Positions 48,308-52,935 of a DNA stretch of 64,000 bases are shown here, piece after piece. The translations under genes and the position numbers were made by a program. Every line of letters starts with the position of its first letter. The first letter of the stretch is position 1. The DNA is from Hyphomicrobium sp. CS1GBMeth3 (GTDB taxonomy: Bacteria > Pseudomonadota > Alphaproteobacteria > Rhizobiales > Hyphomicrobiaceae), in NCBI RefSeq assembly GCF_900117455.1, contig NZ_FPHO01000003.1, positions 1,702,501-1,766,500 on the forward strand. The letters run 5' to 3'. The notes beneath the pieces are model-generated. The model ran no database searches. It saw only the letters and a list, made by a program, of their open reading frames with translations, and was not told the origin of the DNA.

Positions 48308-49246
48308 TTACGGAATCCAACCCTTGTCGAGGTCCATGGCTTGGCGGGCTTTCGAGGCGCCGTCGCGGTCGAACAGCACCGCTGTCCAAGCCAGGTGTGT
48401 TCCCGCCTCTTCCGACGAGCGCGAGCGCAGTGTCACGAGCAGGCTTTCGCCGGCCTCGACACGCACGGGCGCGCGTAGCGGAAAATAAAGCTGCTCCCAA
48501 TGCGTCTTCGGCGCGTTGGGCGCCGTCGAGAGCATGATGCCCTCGGCGAGATCCGCTTCCCACCAGTAGGCGATGCCGTAGATGGTTTCGGAAGCATCCA
48601 GCTTCCAGGAAACCTCGCCCTTGCGCGTGCCCTTCCTGTCGGAGCCGAGCGTGACCGTATCCCACACCTTGGCCGCGCCGCCGCCCGCGAGAAGCTCGTC
48701 CGGCGAGAAGCTTCTCACGTAGACATTGTTGAGGCTCATCTCGCGCGCGTCCGAGAGATCGACGCAGAACCCTACCTCGTCCCACACCGTGAGCTCACGA
48801 TGGATGCGATCCGAAATCACCGGCACGGCGAATTGCCGGATGCGGGCCGGGATCATCACGCCGCCGTCCTTGAGATGACGCAGCTGCGCATCCGCCAGCG
48901 TGTCGATGATATTCTCCTCGAACGCATAGTTGCCGAGCGTCTCCGAGACCACGACGTCCACCCGCGGCGGATCCTCCATCTCGGTCGAGTGGCAGGGCAT
49001 GAGATGGCACGCGCGAGCGCGGTTCTTCTTGATCGTCTGGGCGGCGACGCCGGCGACTTCCGCCGCTTCGTACAGGAGCACTTCCGGCGCGCCGAGCTTC
49101 GCCGCCATGAGTCCGATCAGCCCCGTACCGGCGCCGATGTCGGCAACCGTCGTCTCGCCCGGCTTGATCACGCGCTTGAGCGCGTCATGGAAGGCTTGGT
49201 TGCGCACGCGATCCGCGATCAGCGTGCGATGGTATTCGATGCGCAT
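48308..49246 (-). CDS. Protein arginine methyltransferase (PRMT)-like SAM methyltransferase
   Basis: This 312-residue class I SAM methyltransferase carries the PRMT hallmarks: motif I VADIGAGTGLIGLMAAKLGA (residues 34-53), post-I YEAAE, a double-E loop SETLGNYAFEE (101-111), and a THW-loop equivalent THWEQLYFPL followed by a beta-barrel-like C-terminal domain. Eukaryotic PRMTs have SExMGYxxxxE and THWKQ, a close parallel. The start at 49246 begins the conserved domain. It lies 43 bases downstream of a GMC oxidoreductase gene and is probably in its operon. Real substrate is unknown. Confidence 0.82.
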   Translation of the reverse strand: MRIEYHRTLIADRVRNQAFHDALKRVIKPGETTVADIGAGTGLIGLMAAKLGAPEVLLYEAAEVAGVAAQTIKKNRARACHLMPCHSTEMEDPPRVDVVVSETLGNYAFEENIIDTLADAQLRHLKDGGVMIPARIRQFAVPVISDRIHRELTVWDEVGFCVDLSDAREMSLNNVYVRSFSPDELLAGGGAAKVWDTVTLGSDRKGTRKGEVSWKLDASETIYGIAYWWEADLAEGIMLSTAPNAPKTHWEQLYFPLRAPVRVEAGESLLVTLRSRSSEEAGTHLAWTAVLFDRDGASKARQAMDLDKGWIP

Positions 49247-49289
49247 GCGGCGTCTCTCGACTGGAACACCCTGCGGAGCCCTTGAGTGT

Positions 49290-50951
49290 TCAGGCTGCGG
49301 CGGCTGGGGAAACGGGTGCCGTTGTGTAGCTGAGACCGTGGTCCTGCGCAAAGTGCAGCATCGCCCGCTCGGCGAGCGCCGTGATGGTCAGCAGCGGATT
49401 GACGCCCAGAGAGCGCGGGATCACCGCGCCGTCGATGACGTAGAGGCCGTCATGCACGCCGGTTTCGTCCGCGCCGGGCGAGCCGTCGAAGACCCGGCAC
49501 TTGTGATCCACCACGCCCTCGCCGCGCTCGCGCCCCATGCCGCAGCCGCCGAGCGGATGCGCCGTTGCCGGCTGATGCCCCATGACCGTACCCGCCAGCG
49601 GGTTCTTGACGTATGAACCGCCGCTCGCCGCCACGAGCTCGGAAAGGATGGCGTCGAGCCGCGCGTAGACGGGCTCGTCCTTGGCGCCCGGCCAGGCCAG
49701 CGCCAGCCGATCATCCTCGAGCGCGAAACGGCCCGAGGCGCTGTCGTGCGAGACGGCGAAGAACGTCTGCAGATGCGCGAACGGCCCTTTGTAGACGCCG
49801 CTGACGAGACTCGACAGCGCGCCGAGCAGACGCCCGTTCGGCAGGAACATAACCGGCAGCACGGAGGCGAACGCCGACGGCAGCGCACCCTCCTGCACGT
49901 GGAGCTGATTGGCCAGCGTCTCCGCGTCGCGGAACTCGAGCTGTCCGGATACTGCCACGCCGACGTCGAGCCCCTCCAACTTCGCCGGATGACCGACGCC
50001 CACGGCGTTGACGACAGGCTTCGCGCCATAGCCGAAGGCGATGATGTCGCCGTTGGCGGAGAAGCGATGACCGAGCTTGTCCGAGAGCTTGAGGCCCGCC
50101 GCGCGTGCGCGCAGCAGGATCTCCGTCGAGCCGAGCGTGCCGGCGGCGAGCACGACGACCGGCGCCTCGATCGTAACCTCCGGGATACTGCGGTCAGGTC
50201 CCACGGCTTTTGCCGCGACCTGCCAGATGCCGTCCGCGCCCTTGCGCACGACATCGACCTTGAAACCGGTGAAGAGCTCGGCCCCATGCCGTGCCGCATC
50301 CGGCAGATAGGTCATCGCCACGGTGTTCTTTGCGCCGACGTTGCAGCCAGCACAGCAGTCGCCGCACCGCGTGCAGGCCGGCTGCGAGAGGCCGGCGGGA
50401 TTGAGCGTTTCCTCGAAGCTCACGGCGACTGGCGAAGCCACCGGATCGCCGTCCATGCCGCGCCCGGCCGCTTCGAGCACGGAGAATTTCGTCATCTCGC
50501 GGAACCGCGGATCGGTCGCGGGACGGATCCACTGCCGGGCGCGCCGGAACCCTTCATCGAGCGTGCCGTCCTGCACGATCTGCCCCGGCCATGCTTCGTC
50601 CGCGAACACGCGCCGGTCCGGCACCAGCGACACGCCGGCGTTGACGAGCGAGCCGCCACCGAGCCCGCAGCCCACCAGCACGTGCATGTCGCGGCCGAGA
50701 CGCACGTCATAGATCGCCTGCTCGGATCCGGTGCGGAAGTTCTGGCCCGTGACCTGGAACTCGTTCTTGAGCTCGGAGAATTTCTGCGGAAACGCCCCGG
50801 TCTCGATCTCGCGCCCGCGTTCGAGCACGGCGACACGCTTGCCCGCGCGCGCAAGACGCGAGGCCGTGACACCGCCGCCGTAACCCGAGCCGACGACGAT
50901 CACGTCGTAGCGCTGCTTCAGCGCGCTGCCAGGCAGGCTTAATCTCGGCAT
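49290..50951 (-). CDS. GMC-family FAD oxidoreductase with a five-cysteine cluster
   Basis: This 553-residue flavoprotein has the ADP-binding VIVVGSGYGGGVTASRLA at residues 17-34, an FAD-contact region (GCGLGGGSLVNAG), and a C-terminal GMC domain (ATAHPLGGCGMG, GLYVIDGAVIPRSLGVNPLLTI). A CxxCxxCCxxC cluster at residues 193-203 (ACTRCGDCCAGCN) is typical of a cholesterol-oxidase/dehydrogenase-like subgroup and could bind iron-sulfur or other metal. Substrate is probably a sterol-like or other alcohol, uncertain. The start at 50951 is preferred; the in-frame upstream 82 residues look random. Confidence 0.88.
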   Translation of the reverse strand: MPRLSLPGSALKQRYDVIVVGSGYGGGVTASRLARAGKRVAVLERGREIETGAFPQKFSELKNEFQVTGQNFRTGSEQAIYDVRLGRDMHVLVGCGLGGGSLVNAGVSLVPDRRVFADEAWPGQIVQDGTLDEGFRRARQWIRPATDPRFREMTKFSVLEAAGRGMDGDPVASPVAVSFEETLNPAGLSQPACTRCGDCCAGCNVGAKNTVAMTYLPDAARHGAELFTGFKVDVVRKGADGIWQVAAKAVGPDRSIPEVTIEAPVVVLAAGTLGSTEILLRARAAGLKLSDKLGHRFSANGDIIAFGYGAKPVVNAVGVGHPAKLEGLDVGVAVSGQLEFRDAETLANQLHVQEGALPSAFASVLPVMFLPNGRLLGALSSLVSGVYKGPFAHLQTFFAVSHDSASGRFALEDDRLALAWPGAKDEPVYARLDAILSELVAASGGSYVKNPLAGTVMGHQPATAHPLGGCGMGRERGEGVVDHKCRVFDGSPGADETGVHDGLYVIDGAVIPRSLGVNPLLTITALAERAMLHFAQDHGLSYTTAPVSPAAAA

Positions 50952-51290
50952 CCCTCTATCCCGTAACGACTTTCGGCCTCGGCCGGCTTTGCTCTCCGCT
51001 CTGCAGCGTGCCGACCCCCCGCAGCCGCTCGCTGTCCCGGACGTAACGCTCCGTTGGGGTACTCCGCCGGCCCACGGCGCGCAACGCGGAGCCGCACGTT
51101 GCGAACAATCGAGTGCGGGATGAGGCTTTCGCGTAACGATCGGCAGCGGTTTCGCAGGGCGGGAATGGAATTCCGCCCCAATCGGCTGTTTACTCACGGC
51201 CTCCTGATCGGCGCCATGTGTCCGGGCTCGCCGAGACCCGGCTGGCGCGCACCGCCTTGCGGCCGCGTGTTCCGCGTCGACTGGGAATCT
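50952..51290. promoter_or_regulatory. Intergenic region between the GMC gene and tRNA-like genes
   Basis: These 339 bases separate the leftward GMC gene and the rightward tRNA-like pair and should contain both promoters. I checked the GC-rich stretch 51235-51285 for a sigma-54 element and found GG and GC with the wrong spacing. No gene is convincing: the longest plus-strand frame runs on into the tRNA-like sequence and has no family features. Confidence 0.45.
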
Positions 51291-51363
51291 GAGGCTGTAG
51301 CTCAGCGGCAGAGCGCCCGGCCATGCCGGGAGGTCGAGGGTTCGAGTCCCTTTAGCTTCTCCA
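51291..51363 (+). tRNA. tRNA-like RNA 1 (Gly-like body, 5-nt anticodon loop)
   Basis: The sequence folds as a tRNA. It has a 7-bp acceptor (GAGGCTG/TAGCTTC, two G-U pairs), T8-A9, and a D-arm GCTC-AGCGGCA-GAGC with GG and A21. The T-arm is GAGGG-TTCGAGT-CCCTT, the discriminator is T73, and the 3' CCA is encoded. The anticodon arm is abnormal: a perfect CCCGG/CCGGG stem closes a loop of only five bases (CCATG), or four bp plus GCCATGC with no U33. U73 and the AGGTC variable loop resemble tRNA-Gly. It cannot decode normally and is either a pseudo-tRNA or a tRNA-like RNA with another job. Confidence 0.7.
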
Positions 51364-51441
51364 AACGGCTAGCTCAGTGGGTAGAGCACGAGACTGTTAA
51401 TCTCGCTGTGATGGGTTCGATCCCCATGCCAATCGCCTCCA
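51364..51441 (+). tRNA. tRNA-like RNA 2 (Asn GTT anticodon, damaged acceptor stem)
   Basis: Directly abutting the first, this has T8-A9 at 51370-51371 and a D-arm GCTC-AGTGGGTA-GAGC. A normal anticodon arm follows (CGAGA-CTGTTAA-TCTCG, anticodon GTT), then a variable loop CTGTG and a T-arm ATGGG-TTCGATC-CCCAT. The acceptor strands (AACGGC before T8; GCCAATCGCC after the T-arm) pair only over GGC/GCC plus scattered bases. The TCCA ending is three bases later than expected. It may be a decayed tRNA-Asn, or the 3' part of a joint transcript with tRNA-like 1. Confidence 0.6.
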
Positions 51442-51771
51442 AGCGATCTCGACTTCTGGGAGCCGGTCGTTGTTCCTGCCCAAGCATCGTCATCAAGGCT
51501 TCGGCCGAGATGGCGGGGCGGCGGCAAGCGGCGAAGCGCTCCGTGCCCCGCGCGGATATCGCCTCGCGGCGAAGCCGGAGCGGCGCGTATCGGAGGCGGG
51601 CCTGCGGGCTTGCCCGAGAGCATGTCGCGGAAGGCCGAGCCGCGTGGCTGAAGCGGGGGCCCGCGTCATCGTTGTGGAAGAGCGGCCGGCGACCTGCTGG
51701 CCCTAACTAAGAACGAAAAGGAGGGGCACGCTCAGAGTGCCCTGACTGCCAACAGGTATCCGGAGTTTCCC
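51442..51771 (+). promoter_or_regulatory. Leader between tRNA-like genes and slipin gene
   Basis: This 330-base, GC-rich stretch has no credible ORF. Near its end is an inverted repeat GGGCAC (51724-51729) / GTGCCC (51737-51742) just upstream of the slipin ribosome site (CCGGAG, about 51760). The hairpin could be a regulator of slipin translation or a terminator for the tRNA-like RNAs, though the T-run is missing. Confidence 0.4.
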
Positions 51772-52935
51772 ATGTCCCGCCTGAGCTTTTGGACCACGGC
51801 AATCGTGAAGGACGAAGAGCGCGCCTTCCTCTACCGTGACGGGCGCTTCGTGCGCCTGCTCGAGCCGGGCCGTTTCGTCGAGTTCGATCCGTTCCGCCAA
51901 GCGTCCGTCGAGATCGTGAAGGTCCTGCGTGCCGAAATTGCGCCGGAGCGCGCACGCATGTTCGCCAAGACGGAGCCGGATCTCGCGGACGAGAATTTTG
52001 CGATCGTGCAGACGGGGCCGACCGAGGTCGCCATCGTCTCGCTCGACGGCGAGCCGAAGCACCTCGTGCTGCCGAACACCACGCGCGCGTTCTGGAAGAC
52101 GCTGACGGCTGTCGATGTCGAGGTCATAGACACCGCGTCGACATGGCGCGTCGAGAAGCGCCACCTGGACAGACTGGATGCGGCGCGCGCCGGCGGCGCG
52201 CTCGTGACGACGGTCGTCGAGGCGAGCGAAGCGGGCCTTCTGTTTGTCGACGGTGTTTTGACGGAGCGGCTTGTACCGGGCCGGTACGGGTTCTGGTCCG
52301 TCGGTCGTCAGGTGCGCATCGTCAAGATGGACCTGCGCCCGCAGCCGCTCGAGGTAACGGCACAAGAGATACTGACCAAGGATCGCGTCGGCATCCGCGT
52401 GACGTTGACGGCTTTCGCGCGCATCGTCGATCCGGAGAAGGCAGCGCTTGCCGCGCCCGACGTCAACGCCACGCTCTACCGCTTGATCCAGTTCGCGATC
52501 CGCGAGGCTGTTGCCGCGCGCACGCTCGACGAGATTCTGGCCGCGCGCGATACCATCGACCGCGAGGTGCGCGCCTACGTGACCGAGCGCGCCGCAGATC
52601 TCGGCGCCGAGGTCGGAGAGATCGGTGTCAAGGACGTGATCCTGCCGGGTGACGTGCGCGAGCTTTTGAACAAGGTCGTGGAGGCTGAGCGTGTCGCCAA
52701 GGCGAACATCATTCGCCGCCAGGAGGAGACGGCCGCCACGCGGTCGCTCTTGAACACGGCGAAGCTGATGGAGAACAACTCGCTGCTGTTGCGTCTGAAG
52801 GAGCTCGAGGCGCTGGAAAAGCTCGTCGAGAAGGTCGGCCGCATCGATCTGCACACGGGCTCAGGAGCGGGCGGCTTCGACGCGCTGCTCTCGAACCTCT
52901 ACAAGCTCGGCGAGAAAGCTGCCGACGGAAAATAG
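51772..52935 (+). CDS. Slipin family (SPFH/band-7) protein
   Basis: This 387-residue protein has no membrane helix at its start (MSRLSFWTTAIVKDEERAFLYRDGRF). It has two related N-terminal segments, then the SPFH domain (VRIVKMDLRPQPLEVTAQEILTKDRVGIRVTL, ALYRLIQFAIREAVAARTLDEIL, EVGEIGVKDVILPG) and a C-terminal coiled-coil-like helix (LLLRLKELEALEKLVEKV). Soluble slipins of this kind have been noted in gene neighbourhoods of RtcB/RtcR RNA-repair systems. No rtc gene is in this window. It reads in the same direction as the two tRNA-like genes 330 bases upstream. Confidence 0.88.
   Translation: MSRLSFWTTAIVKDEERAFLYRDGRFVRLLEPGRFVEFDPFRQASVEIVKVLRAEIAPERARMFAKTEPDLADENFAIVQTGPTEVAIVSLDGEPKHLVLPNTTRAFWKTLTAVDVEVIDTASTWRVEKRHLDRLDAARAGGALVTTVVEASEAGLLFVDGVLTERLVPGRYGFWSVGRQVRIVKMDLRPQPLEVTAQEILTKDRVGIRVTLTAFARIVDPEKAALAAPDVNATLYRLIQFAIREAVAARTLDEILAARDTIDREVRAYVTERAADLGAEVGEIGVKDVILPGDVRELLNKVVEAERVAKANIIRRQEETAATRSLLNTAKLMENNSLLLRLKELEALEKLVEKVGRIDLHTGSGAGGFDALLSNLYKLGEKAADGK

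Follow-up and report, generated by a model that had tools for sequence, protein, structure and literature searches.

The question raised by this locus of Hyphomicrobium is why two abnormal tRNA-like sequences should stand side by side directly upstream of a gene for a slipin. The answer reached here, from the window (the whole 64,000-nucleotide stretch of DNA that was analysed) and from the genomes of relatives, is that the two sequences, designated TL1 and TL2, together form, in tandem, the tRNA-like core of a single structured non-coding RNA of approximately 490 nt (about 51207-51695), which consists, in order, of a 5' domain, TL1, TL2 and a 3' domain and lies directly upstream of the slipin gene. 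This RNA is conserved, covarying, non-decoding and coupled to the slipin. A preliminary description of the window had treated the two sequences as separate genes, but they are really domains of one longer conserved stretch.

The placement of the two cloverleaves in that description is confirmed by ARAGORN and Rfam, which agree with each other. ARAGORN reports a tRNA-Met(cat) at 51291-51363 and a tRNA-Asn(gtt) at 51363-51437, and the Rfam tRNA family RF00005 matches TL1 (51291-51363, + strand) with 51.8 bits and TL2 (51363-51435, + strand) with 48.6 bits, both above the cut-off of 29; among the 45 Rfam tRNA matches in the genome, TL1 has the third-lowest score and TL2 the lowest. A cloverleaf parser identified these two as the only full cloverleaves of the window, both strands considered. 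TL1 has, as first described, a 5-nt anticodon loop, CCATG, on a CCCGG/CCGGG stem, together with an acceptor paired at 7/7 positions and a TCCA tail, and TL2 has an Asn-type GTT anticodon arm with the loop CTGTTAA and a shortened acceptor (GGC/GCC) paired at only 4/7. The terminal CCA that had been ascribed to both holds for TL1 but not for TL2, in which the “CCA” is no tRNA end but lies within the loop of a hairpin, ATCGC-CTCCAA-GCGAT (51432-51447, + strand), that is read from the sequence and absorbs the would-be 3' end of TL2; the AAGCGATCTC-type strand of this hairpin is conserved in the genus alignment. Compared with an elongator tRNA, both domains have the cloverleaf with D- and T-arms, TL1 has the 7-bp acceptor with CCA and lacks the 7-nt loop with U33, and TL2 has that loop and lacks that acceptor end. 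The reading of the domains as sole-copy decoding tRNAs is ruled out by the ordinary Asn, Gly and Met tRNA genes that the genome also contains (40 of the other 43 tRNA matches were read).

The variation of these features was followed in 121 parsed sequences, of which 97 are pattern loci, ordinary tRNAs making up about half of these, and 24 are stretches upstream of slipin genes; together they yielded 45 tandem pairs. The 5-nt loop, which had been taken as a trait to look for in relatives, is not conserved as such: the TL1 loop ranges from 3 to 8 nt among distinct copies, and what is constant is that it is rarely 7 nt long (it has another length in 40/43), U33 being missing from all three of the 7-nt loops. 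The TL2 loop is 7 nt long in 35/41 distinct copies, 30 of these 35 having U33, and a CCA tail is present in 34/43 distinct TL1 copies versus 4/41 distinct TL2 copies. Ordinary tRNAs served as a control (40 were fetched), and the 19 that the parser could read all have the 7-nt loop, U33 and CCA. The stems are kept in the distinct relatives, with 284/301 TL1 acceptor pairs formed as against 187 after shuffling and 204/205 TL2 anticodon-stem pairs as against 133, where anticodon stems are slightly flattered because the parser chooses the best-pairing length of the variable region. The TL1 acceptors are diverse in sequence, 29 distinct ones occurring among 43 copies.

The genus alignment extends the conservation beyond TL1 and TL2, over about 250 nt downstream and, on the upstream side, over a block of some 70 nt that has GTGTTCCG at its end. 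The 5' domain (51207-51281, + strand) is composed of a closing stem, a hairpin GTCCGGGCTC/GAGACCCGGC and a small hairpin, carries a conserved CTGGCGCG (51242-51249, + strand) and an invariant GTGTTCCG (51267-51274, + strand), and is conserved in 8 sequences from the genus and in 30-33 from the Alphaproteobacteria; a motif of the GGCGCG-GTGTTCCG type is present in Planctomycetes and E. coli too. The 3' domain (51458-51695, + strand) has a long closing stem, GCCGG/CCGGC, and two conserved elements, GCGGATATCGCC (51552-51563, + strand; consensus GCGGATACCGCC) and GGCTGAAGC (51646-51654, + strand; consensus GGCTCAAGC). Both of these domains and both cloverleaves are recovered by RNAalifold from 30 alphaproteobacterial sequences, and Rfam 15 matches the RNA class only as “tRNA”.

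The suggestion that these sequences are specialised and non-decoding, and not decayed genes, is borne out by the covariation of the stems. In the 30 sequences the proportion of paired cells, compared with that in shuffled controls, is 95% versus 70% for the TL1 acceptor, 93% versus 74% for its anticodon stem and 99% versus 85% for its T-stem; the corresponding values for TL2 are 86% versus 68%, 100% versus 68% and 100% versus 85%. The closing stem of the 5' domain is paired in 82% versus 64%, and inner helices of the 3' domain in 92% versus 74% and 82% versus 58%. Some outer helices of the 3' domain pair no more than the shuffles do, and the D-stems are near-invariant and hence uninformative on covariation. 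Two-sided (compensatory) changes are found at 19/33 pairs in the alignment of the 5' domain and TL1. Folding of the single sequence is no better than that of its shuffles (z -0.63), and the TL1 cloverleaf is not seen in its minimum-energy fold.

The gene that follows (51772-52935, + strand) encodes a 387-aa soluble protein of the SPFH/Band_7 type (Pfam PF01145, E 2e-28), in agreement with the soluble slipin noted earlier at a distance of 330 bases, its ATG at 51772 being 336 nt past TL2. No hydrophobic segment was found in the protein, the highest 19-residue Kyte-Doolittle mean being 1.37 and that of the N-terminal 40 residues 0.07. The protein begins with an additional beta region, some 140 residues long, which is followed by the SPFH domain and a long C-terminal helix; it differs from the SPFH proteins stomatin, QmcA and HflK in having this beta region and in lacking a membrane segment. 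Its AF2 model (pLDDT 83.8) resembles oligomeric SPFH proteins and the major vault protein: an SPFH shoulder and a long cap-type helix are present, and vault-type repeats in the N-terminus give a weak match. The eukaryotic vault consists of the major vault protein and vault RNA. Between the RNA and the slipin gene no terminator-like site was found on the + strand.

The proposed tie between RNA and slipin is upheld by their co-occurrence in the genomes of the family and by their linkage across phyla. A 180-nt stretch of the RNA is present in 8/8 genus genomes, the source genome included, with 84-91% identity in the other 7, and blastn with the TL1-TL2 pair finds 32/103 family genomes at 1e-12. 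A comparison was made with the model R1, which represents the 5' domain and TL1 and whose training set includes loci from some of the tested family genomes; it scores 37 family genomes above 100 bits, with an ordinary-tRNA background of up to 84, and one further genome (G022, 87.5 bits) was counted as RNA-bearing because its RNA adjoins its slipin. A search for the slipin is positive in 38 of the 103 genomes. Both RNA and slipin occur in 37 genomes, neither in 64, the slipin only in 1 and the RNA only in 1 (Fisher p 1e-25, with genomes counted without correction for kinship). In the slipin-only genome (G087) the slipin starts 441 nt into its contig, and in the RNA-only genome (G088) the RNA reaches the end of its contig.

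A search of a genome contig collection with a pattern of GTGTTCCG plus a D-arm returned the 97 stretches mentioned above, of which 47 have a same-strand slipin downstream, 5 more have the RNA motif and 45 are, by eye, ordinary-looking tRNA genes. The RNA is upstream of the slipin and on the same strand in 47/47 linked loci, with 428-955 nt from GTGTTCCG to the slipin match (428-656 nt in the alphaproteobacterial loci). Three of the loci that have the RNA motif and no slipin in reach (L112, L116 and L157) lie on contigs that end 651, 58 and 511 nt downstream; a fourth, L144, has the motif, yet no slipin within 4.6 kb downstream. Five loci of Planctomycetes share the RNA motif and the slipin, with a slipin identity of 33-39%. 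Among 397 Pseudomonadota genomes the slipin is found in 25 at 1e-40, and of the 24 slipins with enough upstream DNA all 24 are preceded by the T-loop motif and 22 by the tandem pair, the two members of Pseudomonadota pairs being 65-77 nt apart. In the genus a T-arm is found upstream of 6/6 slipin loci versus 0/24 non-slipin Band_7 loci, and among 5426 E. coli genomes 1624 have the RNA stretch and 1623 the slipin. A phage origin was rejected: a search of 50,697 phage records gave no slipin at 1e-10, and of the 7 viral contigs with a match to the pattern of the RNA, none carries a slipin.

Several loci depart from the tandem arrangement. In Chenggangzhangella (L122, the fifth of the loci that have the RNA motif and no slipin) the 5' block and the D-arm of TL1 are kept, TL1 is then broken and there is no slipin within 2.5 kb, possibly as a result of joint loss of RNA and slipin. 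Three loci of Planctomycetes (L105, L121 and L144) have an additional T-arm ahead of the GTGTTCCG block and a single tRNA-like sequence behind it, unlike the tandem pair. At a divergent locus (L185:1145-1400) the two tRNA-like sequences are nearly identical, their loops measuring 3 and 4 nt, and the slipin is nearer in type to that of the Planctomycetes. In a locus of gammaproteobacterial type (L219/L248), surrounded by RtcR, RtcB, RtcA and RlaP, the slipin is preceded by three successive tRNA-like sequences.

The neighbourhood of the locus bears on the earlier suggestion of a link with Rtc RNA repair, which stands for the beta- and gammaproteobacteria, in which RtcR, RtcB, RtcA and RlaP adjoin the unit, and is not supported for the source genome. 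Among 20 Pseudomonadota loci with flanks, RtcB is near the slipin in 12/13 beta/gamma loci (defined as belonging to the same phylum as the source genome but to another class) versus 0/7 alpha loci; RtcR is present in 7/20, and RtcA and RlaP in several, examples having been confirmed with Pfam. No match to RtcB was found at E 0.001 in the whole source genome, and rtc genes are absent from the window; RtcB is present in 5 of the 8 genus genomes. Exceptions among the Alphaproteobacteria are two Bradyrhizobium loci (L166 and L175, 2/80 tested loci of the contig collection), in which an RtcB-like match lies 2.8-4.2 kb ahead of the RNA. Reports that PaFlo8 of P. aeruginosa sits in an rtc locus (PMC13086221) and that a slipin gene rises together with rtcB in trcR mutants of Anabaena (PMC10272220) fit the same theme.

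Sigma54-type sites with 11/12 matching positions lie upstream of the RNA in 7/17 beta/gamma loci, and a 10/12 site in an eighth (L219), whereas in 21 non-beta/gamma loci no such site scores above 9 of 12, a 10-of-12 sigma54-like site in L207 having been set aside because it is inside the RNA. Sigma54 control in the window was rejected on this absence of an 11-of-12 site from the 21 loci, and the loose sigma54 pattern matches the window at chance level (75 matches versus 65.6 expected). In E. coli, a locus with the slipin and a nucleotidyltransferase (L249:5454-7907) is situated between a DUF3811 gene and lysC in about 30% of genomes; upstream it carries GTGTTCCG, a single T-arm and a sigma54-type site, the RNA lying between this site and the slipin, and in this RNA stretch ARAGORN found no cloverleaf and Rfam no family match. 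Upstream of the RNA in the window, by about 40 nt, is a near-palindromic AATTCCGCCCCAATC (51169-51183), which is recognisable across many alphaproteobacterial relatives (for example as AATTCCGCCGGAATT in L170) and is possibly a promoter or operator in place of a sigma54 site. A divergent GMC oxidoreductase frame occupies 49290-51197; in most relatives similarity starts about 80 residues in, so that the frame probably begins in reality near 50950 and the region of the RNA is intergenic. The protein encoded at 48308-49351 has methyltransferase domains, among them the C-terminal one of arginine methyltransferases (PRMT_C), which by its name is unusual in a bacterium.

The kind of unit described here is already known, because it has two precedents. 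Burroughs & Aravind reportedly proposed in 2016 that the SPFH/Band-7 proteins of RNA-repair systems have a novel tRNA-like non-coding RNA as their partner. The other precedent, published in 2012, is Pcar_R0061 of Pelobacter carbinolicus, a “mutant tRNA” that has a divergent rtcR on one side and, on the other, a stomatin-like gene with rtcA and rtcB (PMC3543383). In view of these precedents the term “undescribed system”, for which the pair had been put forward as a candidate, is too strong. Pcar_R0061 has reciprocal stem changes, a lost U33 and a buried CCA; it was judged to be no pseudogene and was read as non-decoding and as a possible substrate or guide for RNA repair (PMC3543383). It resembles the present RNA in these features and in being a non-decoding tRNA-like sequence directly upstream of a stomatin-like gene, and differs in being a single gene in a single genome, accompanied by rtcR, rtcA and rtcB, with no second tRNA-like sequence or 5' or 3' domain described in the available part of the report (PMC3543383); at the present locus an abnormal tRNA-like sequence precedes the slipin on the same strand, and RtcB is absent. 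A large RNA with 5' and 3' domains, a systematic tandem form, a spread to the Planctomycetes and an rtc-free form were not found in the literature searched, outside which Burroughs & Aravind 2016 falls, and the large, rtc-free form of the known tRNA-like/slipin unit appears to be new. The bacterial Y RNA YrlA (RF02553) also has a tRNA-like module and belongs to a family known from rtc operons, but here there are two whole cloverleaves in the normal D-anticodon-T order, and the adjoining partner gene is the slipin. Membership in the YrlA family was rejected, since the weak match, which covers the T-arm of TL1 and the D-arm of TL2, scores 21.1 bits and the cut-off is 69.

The most likely reading, with about an even chance of being correct, is that the locus specifies a trans-acting slipin-RNA particle of a response to tRNA damage or translation stress. 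The RNA would be co-transcribed with the slipin, ahead of it, and the stable RNA would then act in trans, bound by an oligomeric ring or cage of slipin, so that its two tRNA elbows could dock proteins that handle tRNA, such as nucleases, ligases or modifying enzymes, while the abnormal loop of TL1 would prevent decoding, or cleavage as an anticodon loop. In this genus the particle would work without RtcB. Conservation, co-occurrence, covariation, the TL1 loops, the rtc context, the sigma54-type sites and the slipin model argue for the particle; single-sequence folding, L144 with its missing slipin, the single T-arm of E. coli and the 3-8 nt range of the TL1 loop weaken it. The role in tRNA damage is suggested by the rtc neighbourhood elsewhere, and as the source genome has no RtcB, a role in repair here is one by analogy. 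A more far-reaching version, and a rather improbable one, is a bacterial analogue of the vault, in which a slipin cage or ring and the ~490-nt RNA would capture or shield damaged tRNAs, the arrangement being ancient and common to Proteobacteria and Planctomycetes, with RtcB/RtcA as an optional repair module.

The strict position of the RNA, upstream and on the same strand, makes a cis-acting 5' leader of the slipin mRNA a serious rival, and the main one, even if on balance it is unlikely. RNase P/Z would cut the tRNA-like domains, or tRNA-sensing factors would bind them, and slipin would be made when the processing or charging of tRNA fails; the position and spacing of the RNA in the 47 linked loci, the lack of a terminator-like site ahead of the slipin and the place of the E. 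coli RNA between a sigma54-type site and the slipin are all consistent with this. The RNA is nevertheless far above the size that a leader requires, with 5' and 3' domains conserved away from the gene, its motif occurs without a slipin in L144, and Y RNAs that act in trans are also found in rtc operons, according to the available part of one report (PMC7790460). If, alternatively, the tRNA-like domains were decoys or competitive inhibitors of tRNA-cutting nucleases, merely stored or positioned by the slipin, then their intact elbows, odd anticodon loops and Rtc neighbourhood would be accounted for, and the same source holds a proposal that YrlA is an inhibitor in Salmonella (PMC7790460); this is doubtful, because the TL1 loops are hypervariable in length and sequence and mimic no anticodon, and the large 5' and 3' domains are left unexplained.

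Two further explanations concern the tRNA-like domains themselves. TL1 could be a dedicated aminoacyl donor, charged at its CCA end and feeding a non-ribosomal aminoacyl transferase, which would suit the CCA end and 7-bp acceptor of 34/43 distinct copies; the 9/43 that have no CCA, the 29 different acceptors in 43 copies and the failure to recognise a transferase gene among the neighbours examined make it very improbable. That the domains are tRNA pseudogenes in decay, or remnants of an integration site, would agree with their low Rfam tRNA scores, the odd loops and the weak acceptor of TL2, but is practically out of the question: decay is ruled out by the compensatory changes, by the conservation in all 8 genus genomes and beyond, and by the linkage to the slipin, together with which the RNA is lost.

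The importance of the finding depends on whether the slipin does have a stable partner in the RNA. If so, a large branch of the SPFH proteins would gain a function outside membranes, and a class of structured RNA that Rfam 15 sees only as “tRNA” would be added to those known, with the warning that “tRNA-Met” and “tRNA-Asn” genes annotated in such places are no decoding tRNAs. The role of a tRNA mimic in bacterial RNA repair would also become testable without RtcB, in a genome where ligase and mimic are naturally apart.
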